From Bacteroidales bacterium (GTDB lineage Bacteria > Bacteroidota > Bacteroidia > Bacteroidales > F082), in NCBI GenBank assembly GCA_016290215.1, contig JAEETH010000001.1, positions 86,798 to 150,797 of the forward strand: DNA of 64,000 nt, written 5' to 3'. Positions within the stretch are counted from its first letter, which is position 1. Each line of letters opens with the position of its first letter. The notes beneath the pieces are model-generated. The model saw nothing but the letters and a program-made list of their open reading frames with translations. It was not told the origin of the DNA and made no database searches. This document shows positions 1,440 through 54,348 of this stretch, piece by piece. Both the position numbers and the translations under genes were made by a program.

Positions 1440-1605
1440 CAGCCTCCCATGTCATGCCACCGGGGGCATGTGCGAGAGCAGGCATCTTTGGGAGGCGGTA
1501 CAAAAAAGTTGAAACCCAATACGACGGCCTCAACAGGCATAGATCCCAGGCCTTTACCCCCATGCCATCGCAGGGATGACATACCTGTTGAGGCCTGTAA
1601 ACAAC
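1440..1605. repeat. Family A composite repeat, reverse orientation (two inverted hairpins)
   Basis: Fills the 3' flank of xth. The first hairpin pairs 1442-1449 (GCCTCCCA) with 1489-1496 and carries the core ATGTCATGCC facing GGCATCTTT. The second pairs 1526-1537 (GGCCTCAACAGG) perfectly with 1584-1595 and carries ATAGATCCC facing GGGATGACAT. A spacer of about 28 bases (1498-1525) separates them. Read on the minus strand the order is hairpin 1, GTC, spacer, CCGCCTCC, hairpin 2, the same as the composites at 25.4-26.6 kb. The GGCCTCAACAGG arm is shared with the copies at 25420, 25680 and 26423. Confidence 0.85.
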
Positions 1606-4794: not shown

Positions 4795-4821
4795 TGATGA
4801 GTTTTTTTTAATCCAATAATA

Positions 4822-4849
4822 GTAGAGACGCAGTTTGCCACGTCTCTAC
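4822..4849. repeat. Family D hairpin (GTAGAGACG)
   Basis: A perfect 9-bp stem GTAGAGACG/CGTCTCTAC with a 10-nt loop, in the gap between the DUF6935-like gene and the peptidase gene. The same arm recurs at 18874-18903, and degenerate forms occur at 13080 and 20690. On the minus strand it follows the stop at 4865 and may act as a terminator, though the T-run lies some distance away. Confidence 0.75.
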
Positions 4850-4864
4850 ATGTTTTTCATTCTG

Positions 4865-18847: not shown

Positions 18848-18873
18848 TTGATTGTAAAATAATTGTAAATAAT

Positions 18874-18903
18874 TGTAGAGACGTGGCGCGCCGCGTCTCT
18901 ACA
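18874..18903. repeat. Family D hairpin (TGTAGAGACG)
   Basis: A 10-bp perfect stem TGTAGAGACG/CGTCTCTACA closes a GC-rich palindromic loop (GGCGCGCC). It lies between mutB and the UbiB-like gene and has the same arm as 4822-4849. Confidence 0.8.
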
Positions 18904-18925
18904 TGTTTAAACAAAAAACACGATC

Positions 18926-21628: not shown

Positions 21629-22834
21629 ATGCCACAAACCCCTCTTTATCCTGTCATACGCCTCAATCCAGGCAAGGACGATGCCTTGCGTCGCTTCCAT
21701 CCATGGGTGTTTTCAGGTGCTATCCATGATGCCGCCAAAGGCTTGCAAGCGGGCGACACGGTCACCGTCACCGACTATGACGGCAACATCCTCGGCACGG
21801 GCTTCTGCGAGTCGGACAGCATCGCCGTGAAGATTTTGAGTTTCGAAAACACCAAAATCGATGAATGGTTTTTCCTCGACCGCCTCAACCATGCCTTTGA
21901 GGTGCGCAAAATCATGGGTTTGACCAACAACCCGCATACCAACTGCTTCCGCCTCGTCCATTCGGAAGGCGACGGACTTGCTGGCCTCATCGTCGACATA
22001 TACGGTCACACTGCCGTGGTGCAAGCCCAAACCGAAGGCATGGCACTCCACCTGAAGGAGATTGTCCGTGCCCTCAAACTCATGCCCGACCTTGGCCTGC
22101 AAGCCATCTACAACAAAAGCGCCGATGCCATGCAACGTATGGGCAAGGAAGATGCCATCGTGGACGATGGCTACCTCTTCGGCGAGCGCCTTGATGAGGT
22201 AATCTTGGAAAACGACAGCCGTTTCCTTCCCAATTGGGAAGAAGGCCAGAAGACAGGCTTCTTCCTCGACCAACGCGAGAACCGTGAGTTGGTACGCCAT
22301 TTTGCGCAAGGTAAAACCGTACTCAATGCCTTTGGCTACACGGGGGGCTTCTCCGTCACGGCACTGAAAGGCGGGGCCAAAAGAGCCGTCACCGTCGACG
22401 CCTCCAAAAAAGCTATCGCCATGGCCGAAGCCAACCTCGAACTCAACGGCTATTCGCAAGAAGAGAATCCCTGCCATGTGGCCGACATGAAGGAATATAT
22501 CAAGGACATGCGCGAAGGTGCTTTCGACCTCATCATCCTCGACCCGCCAGCCTTTGCCAAACGTCATCAAGACCGTCATCGTGGCTTGAGCGGCTATAAA
22601 TTCCTCAACGCCGAAGCCATCAAGCGCATCGCCAAAGGCGGATTACTGTTCACCTTCAGCTGCTCGCAGGCCGTCGACAAAGCCACCTTCCAAGGCATCG
22701 TCACCGCAGCGGCGATAGAGGCCAAGCGCAACGTGCGCATCATCGACCAGTTGTCGCAGCCCGCCGACCACCCCATCAACATTTTCCACCCTGAAGGAGC
22801 GTATTTGAAAGGCCTGATGCTGATAGTGGAATAA
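21629..22834 (+). CDS. rlmI: Class I SAM-dependent rRNA methyltransferase, RlmI-like (m5C)
   Basis: 401 residues. An N-terminal PUA domain (RLNPGKDDALRRFHPWVFSGAI, GDTVTVTDYDGNILGTGF) is followed by a central linker and a Rossmann methyltransferase domain: FFLDQRENR, NAFGYTGGFSV (SAM-binding motif I), DASKKAIAMAEANLELNGY, LDPPAFAK (motif IV) and TFSCSQ with a Cys suited to C5-cytosine methylation. E. coli RlmI makes m5C1962 of 23S rRNA; the same target is probable. A later frame segment ends YLKGLMLIVE, the usual family C terminus. Alone in its transcript; a family A hairpin begins three bases after its stop and has the shape of a terminator. Confidence 0.92.
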   Translation: MPQTPLYPVIRLNPGKDDALRRFHPWVFSGAIHDAAKGLQAGDTVTVTDYDGNILGTGFCESDSIAVKILSFENTKIDEWFFLDRLNHAFEVRKIMGLTNNPHTNCFRLVHSEGDGLAGLIVDIYGHTAVVQAQTEGMALHLKEIVRALKLMPDLGLQAIYNKSADAMQRMGKEDAIVDDGYLFGERLDEVILENDSRFLPNWEEGQKTGFFLDQRENRELVRHFAQGKTVLNAFGYTGGFSVTALKGGAKRAVTVDASKKAIAMAEANLELNGYSQEENPCHVADMKEYIKDMREGAFDLIILDPPAFAKRHQDRHRGLSGYKFLNAEAIKRIAKGGLLFTFSCSQAVDKATFQGIVTAAAIEAKRNVRIIDQLSQPADHPINIFHPEGAYLKGLMLIVE

Positions 22835-22836
22835 AA

Positions 22837-22887
22837 AAACATTGCCGTGCATGTCATTCCCTTGGGAATCTATGCACGGCAATGTTT
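22837..22887. repeat. Family A solo hairpin at the 3' end of rlmI
   Basis: 16-bp perfect arms AAACATTGCCGTGCAT (22837-22852) and 22872-22887. Inside is the family core: GTC bulge, ATTCCC, 2-nt loop, GGGAAT, CT bulge. The outer stem is preceded by A-rich and followed by T-rich sequence, so this copy could serve as a rho-independent terminator between the two convergent genes. Confidence 0.88.
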
Positions 22888-22901
22888 ATTCTAATATTGC
22901 C

Positions 22902-23492
22902 TTATTTGTTTCCAAAGATTGTTCCTTGCATACGATGCGGATGCTTCACCGGGCTGCTGCCGCGGTCAGCCGACTTGGTAGGCTTATTGCTGATACGTTT
23001 CAGGTAAGCTTTCTCAACATAATCCGTGCCGTATTCGTTCTCGTAGACAAATGTGTTTTTGGTCAATTCAGAAACAGTCATCCTATACGGACGTGGACTT
23101 TCGCTCGTCGTCATATAGATAATTTGTGCAGATTCGTCGTAAGAACAAGTGAATGTAGTCACTAAAACTGTGTCGGGACAAGCTATATAGTCATCGTATT
23201 CACCTATTTCTTCGTTCCAGAGCCAAATTGTATCAATGGCGCTATCACGTATCTCACCCGTTTTGTTATCCCTAAATACCATTTGGATACCATTGTCGGA
23301 TGAATTCGGATCGTAAGAATAGGAACTCGAATAGGGTTCAATCGGGTGGCCCGCATAGTCGATGTTGTAATACTCAATCCTTTCAACACCCCAAGTGCCA
23401 ACCAAATCATCGTAATCAGGCTTACAAGAGGTAAACAGCATGGCAACAAAAGCCACTGCAACAATTAATGTCAGTTTTTTCATTTTTTTCAT
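22902..23492 (-). CDS. Lipocalin-like lipoprotein
   Basis: 196 residues with a lipoprotein signal (MKKMKKLTLIVAVAFVAMLFTSC, lipobox FTSC). Directly after the Cys comes DDLVGTWGVERIEYY, the opening strand of lipocalin-like domains common in Bacteroidota surface or periplasmic lipoproteins, followed by alternating beta-strands (GIQMVFRDNKTGEIRD, TTFTCSYDESAQIIYMT, KNTFVYENEYG). The C-terminal 30 residues (SNKPTKSADRGSSPVK...) are basic and probably disordered. It is a diverged paralogue of the next gene upstream, 21 bases away, and is probably co-transcribed from the promoter at 24011. Ligand unknown. Confidence 0.8.
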   Translation of the reverse strand: MKKMKKLTLIVAVAFVAMLFTSCKPDYDDLVGTWGVERIEYYNIDYAGHPIEPYSSSYSYDPNSSDNGIQMVFRDNKTGEIRDSAIDTIWLWNEEIGEYDDYIACPDTVLVTTFTCSYDESAQIIYMTTSESPRPYRMTVSELTKNTFVYENEYGTDYVEKAYLKRISNKPTKSADRGSSPVKHPHRMQGTIFGNK

Positions 23493-23513
23493 TTTTTTTA
23501 ATTTATTTAATTG

Positions 23514-23996
23514 TTAATCAATTCGTTTCAAGAAAAAGCGTTCAAAGAACGGTTCGGGCTCCGAAAAATGGTTGATCCACGAAGCCCTGATAGTATTGGC
23601 GGCCAACTCCTCAATGTCCATGTCGGCGCTGGTAGCGTCAGAAAACATGGAGATAATCCATGAGGTGTTGTAAATCGTAAGCACATGACTTACGGAATCA
23701 TAATCATAATCGCAATTGAACTTCTTAATCAACGCAGGACTATCGTTGAGCAGCAACTTGCCCGATCCATCATCATAAAAATACACCTCATAGCCATGAC
23801 CTTCACCCACTTCATAATGCAAAGTATCCCACTTTTCGACGCCATCGTCATTGGTGCGGCAACTGATGTATTGCTCACAGCCCCAATGCCCTACGAGTGG
23901 CGAACCAGCATACTTCTTCTCTTTGCAGCACGAACCCAATGCCAACAAAGCCAAGGTTGCCAAAGCCAAAAAAGCGTTTCTGAATTTCATCTCCAT
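23514..23996 (-). CDS. Lipocalin-like lipoprotein, paralogue of the downstream gene
   Basis: 160 residues. Signal with lipobox LGSC near residue 23 (MEMKFRNAFLALATLALLALGSC), then SPLVGHWGCEQYISC, a short loop, YEVYFYDDGSGKLLL, a central FNCDYDYDSVSHVLTIYN strand pair and a C-terminal FERFFLKRID. The G-x-W opening and the Y-D-x-x-x-x-x-L-x-I hairpin are shared with the 22902-23492 product, supporting duplication. Start could also be the Met two codons later (MKFRN). First gene of a two-gene minus-strand unit with a -7 box at 24011. Both may be anchored in the outer membrane; no partner or ligand is indicated. Confidence 0.78.
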   Translation of the reverse strand: MEMKFRNAFLALATLALLALGSCCKEKKYAGSPLVGHWGCEQYISCRTNDDGVEKWDTLHYEVGEGHGYEVYFYDDGSGKLLLNDSPALIKKFNCDYDYDSVSHVLTIYNTSWIISMFSDATSADMDIEELAANTIRASWINHFSEPEPFFERFFLKRID

Positions 23997-24010
23997 AACT
24001 AATTTCGTTG

Positions 24011-24018
24011 CAAAAATA
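24011..24018 (-). promoter_or_regulatory. Promoter -7 box for the lipocalin-like pair (minus strand TATTTTTG)
   Basis: Exact TAnnTTTG 14 bases from the start codon at 23996; leader would be very short. Confidence 0.55.
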
Positions 24019-24048
24019 GGATTAATTCAAATATCGCGCCAATTTTTC

Positions 24049-24056
24049 TAATTTTG
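24049..24056 (+). promoter_or_regulatory. Promoter -7 box TAATTTTG
   Basis: Exact TAnnTTTG 19 bases before ATG 24076; divergent with the box at 24011. Confidence 0.6.
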
Positions 24057-24075
24057 CTGCACAAATACTTCTGAA

Positions 24076-25374
24076 ATGAAACGCAAAATATACCTTATTA
24101 TTGTATTTCTTTGGTCTTTCCTGCTGGCCAACGCTCAAGACACGCTGACTGTTCTACAATACAACCTCCTGCAATATGGGAACTTCCAAGGTTATGGGGG
24201 CTGTTCCGAAAGCACCAACAACACGCAACTCAAAGACGAGTGCATCCGCACCATTTTGGATTATGTAAAACCCGACATTTTCACAGTTTGCGAGTTTGGT
24301 GCCACCGCTAAGCTGCAAAGCGACTTTTTGCGTCATAACCTCAACCTTTCCGGCAAAGATTACTGGCAATCCGATAATATCATCAATTACGCGGGCAGCA
24401 ATATCATCAACCATATTTTCTACAACTCGCGAAAGTTAGGATTGAAGAAACATGTGGCCCTTCGTACCCATCCGCGCGACACCGATGTCTACGAACTGTA
24501 TCTCAAAACCAATACTTTGGCCGTTGGCGACACCGTGAAACTGGTTTGCATCGTCACCCATCCCAAGGCTGGAGAAGAATATGCAGGCTCACGCTACACC
24601 TTGATGCAAACGGTGATGAACTATGTCAGCCAAAACTACGCCACTGAAAATGTGTTGATTATGGGCGATTTCAATATGTATGGTGCCAGTGAGAGTGGTT
24701 ACCAGGTGCTTACCCGAACCTACAGCAACACCAATGCGCTCTTTACCGATCCATTGGCCAACCTTGGCGGCGTGGGCGAATGGAACAACTCCTACCAGTT
24801 TGCCCGATTCCACACCCAATCTACCAGAAATGGAAACACTACATGTTTCTCCGATGGTGGCCTTGACGACCGCTTCGACTTCATCCTGATGGCCGACGAG
24901 ATCAAGTACAGCTACAAGCACTTACGCTATGTGCCCAATTCCTACAAAGCCATCGGCAACGACGGTTACCACTTCAACCAAAGCATCAACCAAGGCTACA
25001 ACTATGTTGTGCCTGCCGAAGTCGCACAAGCCCTCTTCGATTGCTCCGACCATCTCCCTGTGACGATGAAAATCTTCACCGATGTTCCAGGTTTAGGCGT
25101 TGACGAGTCGGAGGTGACTACTTTGGAAGCCTCTGTGGCACCTAATCCAGCTTCTGACGTTACCATGGTTCACTTTTTCAACCCATCAGCAGGCTTGGTG
25201 CAGTTTGAATTGTATTCGCTGCAAGGACAACTGGTGCAACGGCAATCCGAGCATTTCGGGAATGGGGCGCAGCGGTTTGAGCTTAACCTTCAAGATGTTT
25301 CTCAAGGGTTTTATTTGTTGCGCATTAGGCATCAGAAGGGTTGGAGACAAACAATCAAACTCATCGTTCGGTAA
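24076..25374 (+). CDS. Secreted endonuclease/exonuclease/phosphatase-family protein with T9SS sorting domain
   Basis: 432 residues: signal peptide (MKRKIYLIIVFLWSFLLANAQ), EEP domain to about residue 340, then a C-terminal type IX sorting domain. The EEP core shows VLQYNLLQYG, VCEFGA (Glu replaces the usual QE context but the acidic residue is there), IMGDFNMYG with catalytic Asp-x-Asn, and DCSDHLPVTM with the final Asp-His. The tail reads SVAPNPASDVTMV...LYSLQGQLVQ...GFYLLRI...KLIVR, the type A sorting signature. It would be exported across the outer membrane as a surface or secreted nuclease or phosphodiesterase. PorZ encoded at 40691 supports a working T9SS. Substrate is not known. Confidence 0.88.
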   Translation: MKRKIYLIIVFLWSFLLANAQDTLTVLQYNLLQYGNFQGYGGCSESTNNTQLKDECIRTILDYVKPDIFTVCEFGATAKLQSDFLRHNLNLSGKDYWQSDNIINYAGSNIINHIFYNSRKLGLKKHVALRTHPRDTDVYELYLKTNTLAVGDTVKLVCIVTHPKAGEEYAGSRYTLMQTVMNYVSQNYATENVLIMGDFNMYGASESGYQVLTRTYSNTNALFTDPLANLGGVGEWNNSYQFARFHTQSTRNGNTTCFSDGGLDDRFDFILMADEIKYSYKHLRYVPNSYKAIGNDGYHFNQSINQGYNYVVPAEVAQALFDCSDHLPVTMKIFTDVPGLGVDESEVTTLEASVAPNPASDVTMVHFFNPSAGLVQFELYSLQGQLVQRQSEHFGNGAQRFELNLQDVSQGFYLLRIRHQKGWRQTIKLIVR

Positions 25375-25377
25375 AAA

Positions 25378-25626
25378 CAGGCTTCAGAAAGCATGTCATT
25401 CCTGCATTAGGCTGGTGCAGGCCTCAACAGGTATGTCATCCCTGCGTAGGCTCGTGGGCAAAGACATGGGATCTATAGCTGTTGAGGCCGTCCTAAAAGT
25501 TTTTGCTTCTTGAACCGCCTCCTATAGATTTTCCCTAGCGTCCCGCTGCCCATAGATTCCCTCCTACCCACTTGCCAATGCAGGAATGACATGTGCAGCG
25601 AGGTTATGGCCAGGAGGCTTGATTCT
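25378..25626. repeat. Family A composite repeat 1 of the array, with interleaved hairpins
   Basis: Begins ACAGGCTTCAGAAAGCATGTC, the left half of one hairpin 1, which is cut short by a complete second hairpin 1 with arms 25420-25430 and 25479-25489 (GGCCTCAACAG). After GTC and a spacer of about 22 bases comes CCGCCTCC, half of an outer hairpin 2; inside it sits a full inner hairpin 2 with arms CGCTGC and GCAGCG (25544-25600), and the outer arm GGAGGC closes at 25613-25618. It follows the T9SS nuclease gene directly. No reading frame here is credible. Confidence 0.85.
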
Positions 25627-25638
25627 ACCACGGTTAAA

Positions 25639-25890
25639 ACAGGCACTTGAAGTTATGTCATCCCTGCATTAGGCTGGTGCAGGCCCCAACAGGTATGTCA
25701 TCCCTGCGTAGGCTCGTGGGCAAAGTCATGGGATCTATAGCTGTTGAGGCCGTCTTAAAAGGATTTTGCTTCATTGTTCCGCCTCCCATAGATTTTTCCT
25801 GGCATCCCGCTGCACATAGATTCCCTCCTACCCACTTGCCAACGCTGGAATGACATGCGCAGCGGGGTTATGACCAAGAGGCTTGATTCT
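25639..25890. repeat. Family A composite repeat 2 of the array (tandem duplicate)
   Basis: Same organisation as 25378-25626, offset by about 264 bases, down to the trailing ACGGTTAAAA joint. The first half-hairpin differs (GGCACTTGAAG instead of GGCTTCAGAAAG), while the inner GGCCCCAACAGG/CTGTTGAGGCC hairpin and the nested CCGCTGC/GCAGCGG hairpin are shared. The array is therefore partly a tandem duplication with exchanged left arms. Confidence 0.82.
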
Positions 25891-25904
25891 AACACGGTTA
25901 AAAA

Positions 25905-26358
25905 CAGGCACTTGAAGTCATGTCATTCCAGCGTAGGGTAGTGCGGTGGCGGGAATCTATGACTTCAAGAGCCGTCATTAGATGTTATTCTCGAACAAAT
26001 CCTTCCTTTCAGGGTTTATCCTATCTATCAGTCTTTCTTTTTCTGCTCTTGATAGTTTCTTTAATTCTTTTTCCCTAACTATAGCTTGGTCTATCAAACC
26101 AAAATCTTCACAATACACCAGCTTGTGGCATTTATATTTTGCCGTAAAAACAGACCCACTACCTTCCTTGTGCTCTCTAACACGTCTATCAAGGTTATTA
26201 GTAACACCTATGTATAAAGCCCGCCCATTAGTACTTTGCATCATATATACCCAATAGGTTTTCATCTGTTGAATCTTTCAATTATTACTTCTTTAAACCG
26301 CCTCCCATAGATTCCCGCTCTCGCACATTCCTCTGCTGGAATGACATGGGAGACTGGC
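25905..26358. mobile_element. Family A composite element carrying the GIY-YIG gene (putative autonomous form)
   Basis: Left hairpin 1: arms 25907-25921 and 25959-25973 (14 of 15 pair) around the ATGTCATTCC...GGAATCTAT core, followed by GTC. The GIY-YIG stop codon is at 25978, two bases later. On the far side, 32 bases after the gene's start, CCGCCTCCCAT (26298-26308) opens hairpin 2, which closes with GGAATGACATGGGAG (26338-26352). In the other composites these same two boundaries are joined by only about 22-28 bases. The gene thus occupies exactly the spacer slot. No target-site duplication could be defined by eye. Confidence 0.6.
25978..26265 (-). CDS. Small stand-alone GIY-YIG nuclease
   Basis: 95 residues, a single GIY-YIG domain with no other module. 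YWVYMMQS supplies the first motif half, LYIGVTNNLDRRVREHK gives the YIG motif with the catalytic Arg (27/28) and His32, and AIVREKELKKL contains the metal-binding Glu65; INPER near the end gives the conserved Asn. All expected active-site residues are present, so it should cut DNA. Stand-alone domains of this size (UPF0213/YhbQ-like) are widespread in Bacteroidota and their roles are mostly unknown. Here the gene is framed by inverted family A hairpins on both sides, with the stop codon two bases from one of them, suggesting that it belongs to the repeat element. No TAnnTTTG box is visible upstream. Confidence 0.9.
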   Translation of the reverse strand: MKTYWVYMMQSTNGRALYIGVTNNLDRRVREHKEGSGSVFTAKYKCHKLVYCEDFGLIDQAIVREKELKKLSRAEKERLIDRINPERKDLFENNI

Positions 26359-26380
26359 TTTTACTTTTTACATGGTTCTT

Positions 26381-26630
26381 GCAGGCTCCAGAAAGCATGT
26401 CATTCCTGCTTTGGGCTTTGCAGGCCTCAACAGGTATGTCATCCCTGCGGGGGCTGGTGGGCAAAGGCATGGGATCTATAGCTGTTGAGGCCGTCTTGAA
26501 AGGATTTTGCTTCATTATTCCGCCTCCTATAGATTATTCCTAGCATCCCGCTGCCCATAGATTCCCTCCTGCCCACTTGCCAATGCAGGAATGACATGCG
26601 CAGCGGGGTTTTGACATGGGAGGCTGATTC
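26381..26630. repeat. Family A composite repeat 3 of the array
   Basis: Starts CAGGCTCCAGAAAGCATGTC (truncated hairpin 1), then a full hairpin with arms 26423-26433 and 26482-26492 (GGCCTCAACAG), GTC, a spacer of 24-28 bases, and a nested pair of hairpin 2 units: outer CCGCCTCC/GGAGGC enclosing inner CCCGCTGC/GCAGCGGG. It ends on the base before the stop codon of the macroglobulin gene. Confidence 0.85.
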
Positions 26631-29600
26631 TTACTCTCCTACCCTAACCTTCATTCCATCCGAATATGCACTGAACTCAGGAGCATATTGGCACTGAATC
26701 AAGGCGTAGCCATTGTTGAGGTGGCCTTCCTTGGTCACGAACATGCTGTACTCCAGCTGATGCGTGCCCTTGGGCAGGAACTCGATGAAGAACTCCATGT
26801 CGGTGTCGGTGTTGCTCTGGTAGTAGCTCATACGGTCGTTGTACTCGTAGCGCGAGATTTGCTCAATGGGCTCGAAGCCAGCGGCACGGAGGTCCTTGAC
26901 AAAGACAAAGCTCATATCCTGCTGGCTGGTAAAGGTGATCTTTACGGTAAGTTTGTCGCCAACCTTCAGCGTACGCTTCTCCGCAGGCACCAAGACCCTG
27001 CCCTTGTCGGTCACCGTCTCCACAAACAGTTCGCGCTTGATGGTGAAGCCCGATTCGTCGCTCTTCACCTCGTCAATCGGGACGAAATACTGGCGGAACA
27101 GGCCGCCCCACACAAGGTGGTTGGTCGGGTTGTTGACGGTGAGCTGACGCATGTCCTCGGTCACTTCGTTGGCATTCCAACGACGTTGGATGAAGCCCGT
27201 GCCGGCCACGCCACCTTCGGTGCTGACGGGCGTGTTGCCAAAGCGCAGGGTGACTTCCTTGCCTTCCTCGAACCAGTCGCTGCCGCGCATCAGCAGAGCA
27301 TAGATGGCATCGGCGGTGGAGGCCGAGTTCTCCCACATCGTGGTCTGCTTCTGGGTGAGCAGCCACACGCGCAACTCGTCGATAATCTCTTGGTTTTGGT
27401 CGATTTCTGCAAAGGCGGCCATGATGTTGGCGTGGGTGGCGATGTGCGACTCAAACGCGAAGTATTTCTTCGGCCAGTACATGCCGATTTGCTCGTTCTT
27501 CTGAGCGGTTTCCTTGAAACTCTGAATCATCAACTTGGCGGTCTTTTCGTTGCCGTTGCGGTAAAGTACCAAGGCACCCTTCGAGCGTTGGTTGAAATTG
27601 AACGAGGTCCACTCCTTGTCGAGGCTCTTGAGGTAATAGTCCTTGGCCTTAGCGAAGTCGCGGTCGGAGTTTTGCACCTCAAAGAAACTCAATGCATAGA
27701 GCTCGTTCAAAGTGCTGGAACCAATGGGCCAATCCTTGCCTTTGCTATGGGCTTTCATATAGCGGTAGGTCTCGGCCACTTCATATTCAAGGTAACGCAC
27801 GGCCTTGTCGCAGATGCTTTGGGCGGTGTTTTGGTCGGACTTGCTCAACGTACTCCAAGCGCCCATCTTCTGCAATTTGCCGAAACCCGTGAGGATGTAG
27901 GTGCTGATGTACGGACTCTCAGGCATACCGTCCATCCAAGGCCAACCGCCATTGTATTTCTGCTTGTCCTTGATGAGTTTCAAGGCATTGGTCTGCTGGT
28001 TACGAATGGTGTTCACTTCGAAGAGCGTGGCGATACGGCTGCGTTGCTCAGTCTCGCTCTTGGCCTCAAGCACCCATGGCGTCTCTTGCAGCATGATGGC
28101 CTTCAGGTCTTGGTCTTTTTCGAGTTGCGAGAGCAGAGCATCGGGGGTCTCAATCTGCCACTTCTTGATGTAGTTCAAGAGGTTCGGGGTGTGGTCAGCG
28201 ATGTAGGACGAGAGCGTGTTGGCGTAGAACACGTAGAAGGCGGTCTCGGCGCGGTCGGCCTTGACGTTGGCTAAGTAAGGCAGAGCCTGCACGGCGTACC
28301 ACACGGGGTTGGTACTGAAGTTGAGCGTCAGGCTGTAGTCGCGCTCGTGGCTGTCGGGGTTGGCGATGGCTTCGAAGTCGAAGGTTTTTTCGGTCTCAGC
28401 CTTCACAGTGATGGGCAGGGTCTGCGTCATGAAGATTTCGCTGCTCAGCACAGGCAGGAGGTGCTGCTCGGCATCGCTGAATTGTCCTGCGTAAGCCGTG
28501 AAGCGGAAGGCCAAAAGGCTCAAATCATATTGACCCTTCACCTTCCAACGCACTTCCTTGCTACGACCGGGTTGGATAGTCTCCATCGGGATGGTACAGG
28601 TCCCTGAGCCCGTCGAAGGGCCGTCATTAATTATCAGATTCACAGGCTGCATCGTGCCCGCATCAAAGATTTCGAGTTTCGCCGTGGGCGTGACAGGCTC
28701 GTCGCCCGTGTTGATAACGTTGGCCACAAACCACAGTTCGTCGTTGTCGTACATGAAGCGCGGCATGTCGGCCATGATCATCACAGGCTTCGAGGAAGTG
28801 AAGGTGTATTCGTTTTGGCCTGTTTTGCGGTCTTTGGTGTAGGCCATCAGCATCAGGCGCCAGCGCGTGAGGGCGTCGGGCATAGTGAAGCTGAAGGTCG
28901 CGCTTCCGTCGGCGTTGGTGCGTAGCTGTGGGAAGAAGAAGGCCGTTTCGTTGAAGTTCTCGCGGAGGGTAGGTTCGGCGGATTCCTTAGAGGTTGCTAT
29001 ACTTCCTGTTTCGGAAGTAGCTTCTTGCTCTGCGATTTCTACCATTTCTTCTTCGCCGTCTGTTGCGAGAACTGCCCCTGAAACAGAATTCTTCTTTGCA
29101 ACCATAGGCACCTGGTAATCCATCGCAGCCGATTCTTCCACACACATATAAACATCATTTACCCTTCGGCTTCCTTTCCTCAATCCACGCCCACCGTATA
29201 CATACCCATAATCGAAGAAAGGTGCATCGGAAGGCAGGCTGAAATTGAACAACTCGGCAACGTGGAAAAACTCCACAACGGTATTGGACGAGGTGAAGCA
29301 GTGGCCATCGGAATTGAAACTACGTCCAACCACACCTGAAGGCGACATGCTGAACCACCAATGATTGCGTTCAAATTCATCCAAAGAGGCATCATACATT
29401 CCTGTGAGCAAGGCGGCTTCCAACGGCTTGTCCTTATAGTCGCGGACGGTCACCTCCCAGGTCTCCTCGGCACCAGGACTGAGCTTGTCGCGCATGGTGG
29501 CGAGTTTCACATCCAAGTCGTAATTGTCAAAAGGCACGGAAATGTCTAAACGATCCTTGTTGAACGAGTTTTCTTTGACAAAGGCATAACGCCAGTTGAG

Positions 29601-43742: not shown

Positions 43743-43812
43743 GAAATCGCCCATCTATAGATTCCTTGCCGCCGCACTTTTCGGCGCAGGAATGACATAG
43801 ATGGGCGATTTC
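43743..43812. repeat. Family A solo hairpin after recO
   Basis: 16-bp perfect arms GAAATCGCCCATCTAT (43743-43758) and 43797-43812 around ATTCC facing GGAAT with AG/GAC bulges. The loop holds a second small stem (GCCG/CGGC). It lies between convergent genes. Confidence 0.9.
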
Positions 43813-52432: not shown

Positions 52433-52440
52433 TTGTTTCT

Positions 52441-52491
52441 GCGATGACAAACCCATAGATTCCCGAGGGAATGACATGGGTTTGTCATCGC
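52441..52491. repeat. Family A solo hairpin between rodA and ade
   Basis: 16-bp perfect arms GCGATGACAAACCCAT (52441-52456) and 52476-52491, plus one more T-A pair outside. Core: AG bulge, ATTCCC, 2-nt loop, GGGAAT, GAC bulge. Outside the arms there is no T-run on the rodA side. Confidence 0.92.
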
Positions 52492-52496
52492 AAAAC

Positions 52497-54139: not shown

Positions 54140-54348
54140 ACAGTTAAATACATGTCATCCCTTATGTACAAATCAGGCTTCAGAAAGCATGTCATTCCTG
54201 CGCTAGCATGTGGGCAGGTTGGAATCTATGCTTTCTAAAGCCGTCAATTTAAGGTATTGCTTTTTTGAACCGCTGTGCATAGATTCCCTCTCACGCACAT
54301 ACCCACGTTGGAAATCGAAGATTCGACGTAGTCAATGACATGCACAGC
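54140..54348. repeat. Family A composite repeat plus a truncated copy, upstream of ade
   Basis: A short worn copy TACATGTCATCCCTTATGTA (54149-54168) is followed by a full composite: hairpin 1 arms 54176-54190 and 54228-54242 (14 of 15 pair, GGCTTCAGAAAGCAT), GTC, a spacer of about 24 bases and hairpin 2 with arms CGCTGTGCAT (54271-54280) and its partner ending at 54348. The core of hairpin 2 carries an extra block of about 20 bases (54314-54333, itself partly palindromic, TCGAAGATTCGA). Confidence 0.85.

Follow-up and report, generated by a model that had tools for sequence, protein, structure and literature searches.

Stand-alone GIY-YIG nuclease genes paired with class-matched CGTC-type palindromic repeats: candidate enzymes for a repeat family of many bacterial phyla

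The stretch of DNA analysed here (the window, 64,000 nucleotides of a Bacteroidales genome; contig JAEETH010000001.1) carries a small stand-alone GIY-YIG nuclease gene set between two inverted copies of a hairpin of the repetitive extragenic palindromic (REP) kind, with gene-less copies of the same two-hairpin unit close by (Table 1). The same layout recurs around related nuclease genes in many phyla, nuclease clades pair with particular classes of repeat, and gene, single-palindrome and empty states alternate at orthologous sites; in the window's genus, repeats are also placed in terminator loops. The arrangement is somewhat more probably than not an autonomous cassette (REP, GIY-YIG gene, inverted REP) accompanied by non-autonomous REPs, with the layout of the REP-associated tyrosine transposase (RAYT) systems and an unrelated enzyme. 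Whether stand-alone GIY-YIG nucleases are in general the dedicated enzymes of CGTC-type palindromic repeats, matched clade to class across many phyla and spreading them by hydrolytic hairpin cutting and host repair with no transposase, as a new class of prokaryotic mobile element, seems to us evenly balanced.

The window gene fills the slot that other copies reserve for a short spacer, as an earlier note on this DNA had proposed; its ends lie 1 and 32 bases from the hairpin boundaries, where the note had given 2 and 32. Three gene-less composites share the intergenic gap with the gene-bearing copy and have the same boundaries (a GCC-GTC end and a CCGCCTCC start), with spacers of 22, 24 and 24 bases, short as the note had said. 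The cores of hairpins 1 and 2 are inverted copies of each other, 81% complementary. The core pattern GTCATYCC-N5-35-GGRATCTAT has 69 matches in the window's genome, an 85% complete metagenome-assembled genome (MAG), and its reversed control none, which rules out a chance origin. A second GIY-YIG gene of the window type in this genome (C139:53170) likewise stands between inverted copies; the other two GIY-YIG loci (UvrC-like; C140:34296) have no such hairpins within the 3.2 kb inspected. Scanning positions 22000-27000 against Rfam gave a single irrelevant match (E 0.8). A leader common to gene-bearing and gene-less composites was considered and found weak (7.4/18 identities vs 5.8 shuffled; 9 and 22 sequences).

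Table 1. Nuclease gene, hairpins and related repeats in the window (positions counted from its first base)
Feature	Position	Strand	Remarks
Stand-alone GIY-YIG nuclease gene	25978..26265	-	95 aa; Pfam PF01541 E 1.1e-15; catalytic residues intact
Hairpin 1	25907..25976	+	Gene's downstream flank; REP core ATGTCATTCC...GGAATCTAT within outer stem CACTTGAAGTC/GACTTCAAG; order GGCACTTGAAGTC-ATGTCATTCC...GGAATCTAT-GACTTCAAGAGCC-GTC; ends GCC-GTC
Hairpin 2	26298..26358	-	Gene's upstream flank; inverted REP core within outer stem GCCAGTCTCCC/GGGAGGCGG; order CCGCCTCCC-ATAGATTCCC...GGAATGACAT-GGGAGACTGGC
Gene-less two-hairpin composite	25420..25615	+	22-base spacer, boundaries 25492/25515; end approximate
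Gene-less two-hairpin composite	25682..25879	+	24-base spacer, boundaries 25754/25779; end approximate
Gene-less two-hairpin composite	26423..26620	+	24-base spacer, boundaries 26495/26520; end approximate
Gene-less composite, same family	1484..1601	-
Gene-less composite, same family	54176..54340	+	Second hairpin of this composite interrupted; end approximate
Solo REP core in loop of terminator-like hairpin	22838..22886	+	Downstream of RlmI-like methyltransferase gene (name inferred from sequence)
Solo REP core in terminator-like hairpin	43743..43812	-	Downstream of recO-like gene (name inferred)
Solo REP core in hairpin	52440..52492	-	Downstream of rodA-like gene (name inferred)

In this protein the catalytic residues of the GIY-YIG superfamily (two Tyr, one Arg, one Glu and one Asn) are Y7, Y18, R28, E65 and N84. 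All five, together with G20 and H32, are invariant in an alignment of 37 homologues, bearing out the claim that the active site is intact. The closest solved structures by sequence are the UPF0213 proteins 1zg2 (E 2.6e-8) and 1ywl (E 1.8e-6), which likewise consist of a single GIY-YIG domain. The AlphaFold2 model of the 95-aa protein has a predicted local distance difference test score (pLDDT) of 94.4, and in a fold search with this model 1zg2 again ranked first (E 1.4e-4); Slx1 entries, at E 0.02-0.04 and probability 1.00, came next, and then the nuclease domain of UvrC. Among NCBIfam profiles the protein had just one weak match, to a far longer protein.

The hairpins resemble a known repeat. 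Di Nocera and co-workers (2013; PMC3733652) describe CGTC-tagged REPs as having an unpaired CGTC or TGTC tag on one side, a stem starting with AT and a short tail. They occur in several phyla, including Bacteroidetes, and in Rickettsia, paired inverted copies are common, and no association with a dedicated transposase was found; the term GIY does not occur in the article. The window repeats have the same order of GTC tag, AT-starting stem and short tail, and a GTC tag ahead of an AT stem, in agreement with the CGTC/TGTC tag, is present in the window copies and at many homologue loci. Seven alternative tags, when tried, yielded few elements close to the gene, and none in the test for flanking on both sides that is described below. 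Stems of 8-9 bp that start with AT and enclose a loop of 4-5 bases, the form typical of CGTC-tagged REPs, are found at many loci in other phyla; the window copies differ from CGTC-tagged REPs in that their inner stem is short and bulged and, in most copies, their loop longer. The tail after AT is CTA in the window and CCA or CTA at many other loci, that of CGTC-tagged REPs being mostly CCA. The repeats studied here also depart from those REPs, as described in that article, in being paired with GIY-YIG genes.

This pairing is general beyond the window. Homologue loci were taken from a search of species-level genomes of many phyla (the best 80 of 535 relatives) and read with a detector that requires a GTC-AT start and a 5-bp stem end, and misses variant tags such as GTCAC in Sphingobium and CTCAT in Sinorhizobium. 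On both sides and within 200 bp, inverted REPs whose GTC tags point outward flank 31/80 GIY-YIG genes, compared with 1/563 control open reading frames (ORFs) from these loci; with seven control tags the identical test scored 0. Both sides are occupied within 100 bp at 19/80 loci and 0/589 control ORFs, and at least one side carries an element at 62/80 loci and 130/563 control ORFs. For loci L019-L084 alone, the counts are 22/66 (both sides) and 49/66 (at least one side), the GTC tag is distal in 56 of the 76 nearest elements (p 4e-5), and the median distance is 39 bp. In every one of the 14 other genomes checked, the hairpin pattern is multi-copy, with counts between 3 and 264 (3 to 11 in four of them) and at most 2 for the reversed control. 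The flanking hairpins that the note had suggested seeking at related GIY-YIG genes are present across many phyla.

These counts bear on the idea that the gene is a passenger, surviving without a role in REP-dense gaps while an unlinked transposase or replication slippage spreads the repeats. Genomes rich in REPs with no cognate gene detected are common, as such an idea would have it, but inverted flanking on both sides is nearly absent at control ORFs, and among small ones (75-130 aa) only 1/120 is flanked, a mechanical ORF that abuts a GIY-YIG cassette. The class-specific pairing, which persists in genomes with two classes of repeat, and the unflanked GIY-YIG clades of the genus also speak against it (both below), and we consider it improbable.

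The genus comprises 99 genomes, and in it the flanks of 107 proteins were inspected, 60 of which have an element. The protein tree holds 186 proteins (those below 70 aa being left out), 121 with an element within 200 bp; its alignment has few columns, leaving many forks uncertain, and the six genus clades compared here were chosen from it after the class labels were known. The window's clade goes with the GTCATTCC/GTCATCCC class (YCC), a second clade with the GTCATTGCGAG...GCAATC class (TGC) and a third with the GTCATTTCGA...GAAATC class (TTC). An element lies within 200 bp of 20/21, 15/16 and 17/18 genes of these three clades, respectively, and 14, 10 and 10 genes are flanked on both sides with tags outward. 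The three other clades have an element at 0/12, 0/10 and 1/16 genes (1/38). Together with the class-matched pairs, these unflanked clades act as built-in specificity controls.

Matching was measured as the number of class-label changes on the tree, over 107 rows of the three main classes (14 rare-class and 65 unlabelled rows excluded). There are 13 changes, against a mean of 43.5 and a minimum of 35 in 500 shuffles. Keeping a single row from each 70% identity cluster (47 rows) gives 12 changes vs 18.6 shuffled (minimum 14), and doing so at 60% identity (37 rows) gives 10 vs 15.0 (minimum 11). Genomes holding at least 10 copies of both YCC and TGC answer the objection that a gene merely sits beside whatever repeat its genome has: here the pairing holds, with 16/18 genes of the window's type beside YCC (one has no element, one a TTC element), 8/8 TGC-clade genes beside TGC, and 0 swaps between these two classes (Fisher 1.4e-6).

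Gene and repeats are also distributed together, with one to five gene copies of a type per genome and tens to hundreds of REPs. Every genome with a gene has at least 10 REPs of its class (18/18 YCC, the 18 including one broken copy and one remnant; 16/16 TGC; 9/9 TTC). Within a close clade of 40 genomes, at least 10 YCC REPs occur in 18/18 with the gene and 8/22 without (p 2e-5). A Y1 (RAYT-type) transposase was rejected as mover: within 200 bp of the genus's Y1_Tnp loci, GTC-tagged elements are present in 0/26 cases (30 were sampled, four without a called ORF; matches occur in 70/99 genomes), and in the clade of 40 genomes the numbers of Y1 genes and of YCC REPs do not correlate (rho -0.15, p 0.37).

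Comparison of orthologous sites reveals gene, single-palindrome and empty alleles, the last being those for which the note had proposed to look. The window site lies between two genes that, judged by sequence, are alpha-2-macroglobulin-like and endonuclease/exonuclease-like. In congeners, of which eleven gaps were read, the cassette is intact in G085, its gene is broken in G092 and reduced to a remnant in G007, hairpins stand without a gene in G044, G031 and G059, and no GTC-tagged element is seen in G024 and five others. Azospirillum lipoferum 4B has a cassette between sufB and sufC; in three relatives (95-97% identity) that gap contains neither gene nor GTC-tagged hairpin, one of them, B510, having a longer gap with a different inverted repeat. 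At an orthologous Sphingobium site, two strains carry the cassette, two others have one palindrome in which the left REP supplies the left end and the right REP the right end, and a further strain has another repeat. Sinorhizobium meliloti Ak57 has an intact cassette with an internally deleted one next to it, and a lone palindrome occupies this site in Sinorhizobium K101. The suggestion that gene-less copies are derivatives, as REPs are of RAYT systems, fits this deleted cassette as well as the layout and copy numbers.

From the combination of few genes with many repeats, the class matching and the internal-deletion derivative, we infer a nuclease that targets the cognate hairpin, with the REPs as its non-autonomous forms. 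The autonomous form would consist of a REP hairpin, the GIY-YIG gene and an inverted REP hairpin with GTC tags outward, and the non-autonomous forms would be the two-hairpin composites and solo REPs of the matching class, many per genome. The small nuclease may recognise the cognate hairpin by its GTC tag and stem ends (AT-xyz...z'y'x'-AT-C) and nick or cut at or near it. A hairpin or cruciform substrate would suit an enzyme whose predicted fold resembles that of Slx1, a cutter of branched DNA that works with its partner Slx4 in eukaryotes. GIY-YIG enzymes cut DNA by hydrolysis and, to our knowledge, do not rejoin strands, so that copying would have to rely on the host: repair or replication might carry a REP or the entire cassette into new sites, the repair route being speculative. 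Of the mobile system envisaged in the earlier note, the layout, pairing and site states are observed, while binding of the hairpin by the nuclease and its driving of repeat spread are what the pattern suggests.

Several observations weigh against such a system. The detector finds no both-side flanking at 49/80 loci and no element within 200 bp at 18/80. The pairing has exceptions in L217, where a gene of the window's type stands beside a TTC-class repeat, and L216, which has no element by the detector. Related genomes are not independent, and the tests correct for this only by named clade and identity filters. When filled and empty sites were compared by eye, no target-site duplication was evident, the intergenic regions of congeners being too diverged for this purpose. 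Movement would be deduced from comparisons between genomes, and the alternation of gene and solo states could also reflect slippage between REP arms with loss of the gene. Genomes without the gene reach 10 or more REPs in 8/81 (YCC), 24/83 (TGC) and 10/90 (TTC) cases. For YCC these are G089 (72 copies), G021 (64), G091 (45), G042 (35), G016 (33), G059 (27), G086 (19) and G012 (11), with no gene of the window's type detected in G021 despite 98% completeness. The window's own genome (G000) has 29 TGC copies and no detected TGC-clade gene, and five TTC-rich genomes lack any GIY-YIG match (G017, 72 copies at 94% completeness; G049, 52; G054, 48; G073, 30; G026, 25). Many, though not all, repeat-rich genomes without the gene are incomplete MAGs, whose gaps may hide genes. 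The asymmetry is nonetheless real and argues against strict dependence of repeats on gene; it would be explained by loss of the gene while the repeats persisted, by a different mover, or by a gene that homes into repeats already present. Hairpins abundant in the absence of the nuclease are only the second half of an outcome that the note had counted against its proposal; the first half, related genes devoid of hairpins, is not what is found. As a separate observation, L217 may represent a class switch.

Homing deserves attention of its own. The gene could encode a free-standing homing endonuclease with solo or two-hairpin REPs as its cutting sites; gene conversion between the REP arms would then copy the gene in, the REPs spreading by other means. 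Small stand-alone GIY-YIG genes of this kind, which may spread themselves, are exemplified by the Seg proteins of phage T4. Homing would account for the alternation, at one orthologous Sphingobium site, of the cassette with a single palindrome built from the two outer REP ends, for the similar alternation of a gene-remnant cassette in Sinorhizobium, and for the one-sided co-distribution, in which the gene always accompanies abundant REPs of its class and REPs often lack the gene. It sits poorly with the one to five gene copies of a type per genome where tens to hundreds of target REPs are available, and beside the REPs no second enzyme came to light (Y1 transposases being unflanked; other enzyme classes were not searched). 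We know of no class-matched family of gene-less hairpin repeats accompanying free-standing GIY-YIG homing endonucleases. On balance homing appears unlikely, although it merits serious consideration.

Among known systems, the cassette proposed here invites comparison with the REP/RAYT systems and REP doublets forming hairpins (REPINs), where a rare gene between inverted REPs is accompanied by many gene-less REPs or two-REP units (in part after PMC2817692 and PMC3116915). The differences are clear. RAYTs are tyrosine transposases with GTAG-tagged REPs, whereas the enzyme here is an unrelated hydrolytic nuclease, the tag is GTC, and the Y1 tyrosine transposase genes of the genus are unflanked. 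Penelope-like retroelements also include a GIY-YIG nuclease in a mobile element, but, according to PMC3846280 and PMC5718144, as part of a eukaryotic retroelement with a reverse transcriptase. Rickettsia palindromic elements are likewise short palindromic repeats, for which the available passages of PMC10969869 name no mover, and R. conorii RPE sequences end with CGTC (Di Nocera et al., PMC3733652). At locus L067 of Rickettsia sp. MEAM1, a GIY-YIG gene lies beside such hairpins, not scored as flanked on both sides, in a genome with 249 pattern matches. A literature search found no paper linking GIY-YIG to REPs, preprints and most subscription papers lying outside its coverage, in keeping with the note's remark that it knew of no described system in which a stand-alone GIY-YIG domain moves palindromic repeats. 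CGTC-type REPs were catalogued in 2013 without an enzyme, and the matched GIY-YIG gene is the best candidate for this large bacterial family, the Rickettsia elements being a classic example of repeats now given a candidate enzyme. Should the proposal prove true, the repeat families of many bacterial phyla would belong to a single kind of mobile element, run by a GIY-YIG enzyme. GIY-YIG enzymes are not known to us to run any other prokaryotic repeat.

Finally, the YCC-class element favours the loops of terminator hairpins in this genus. Solo elements downstream of rodA-, recO- and RlmI-like genes lie in the loop of terminator-like hairpins, the clearest pair being L180, with a 9-bp stem and six-base loop, and its congener L178, with the same stem and a 19-base element. 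An outer nested stem was rejected as a general feature of the repeats. In the genus a flank complementarity score of at least 8 is reached by 59% of 39 solo TCC and 87% of 15 solo CCC elements, but by 0/22 solo TGC, 0/31 solo TTC and 3% of 37 clustered TGC elements; in other phyla the values are 0/103 (solo) and 0% of 166 (clustered), with 2% in shuffled sequence. The terminator-like setting of YCC cores invites the view that the flanking hairpins are merely the gene's own terminators or regulatory hairpins. Yet the hairpins are multi-copy, carry an oriented GTC tag, mostly occur without the gene and, in other phyla, lack the outer stem, so that this view is scarcely tenable.

Some further details of these sites may be added. 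At L120, downstream of a rodA-like gene, an element is nested within an element within the terminator, which is plain in the relatives L116 and L119. At the recO-like gene's downstream site, L157 differs from L162 and L145 in that its element runs the opposite way within a similar terminator stem, as if flipped. Palindromes of the form GTAGAGACGC...GCGTCTCTAC lie at window positions 4815-4855 and 18868-18908, and the same family forms a terminator-like hairpin in several congeners. GIY-YIG cassettes at L014, L010, L210 and other loci stand at gene-order breaks relative to the window. Record CP090106 (L316), labelled pSymB, is 3.7 Mb long and carries gltA and lpxB, and is possibly a mislabelled chromosome. 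On a Planktothrix plasmid (L323), a GIY-YIG cassette lies between an MmeI-type restriction gene and the DISARM gene drmA.
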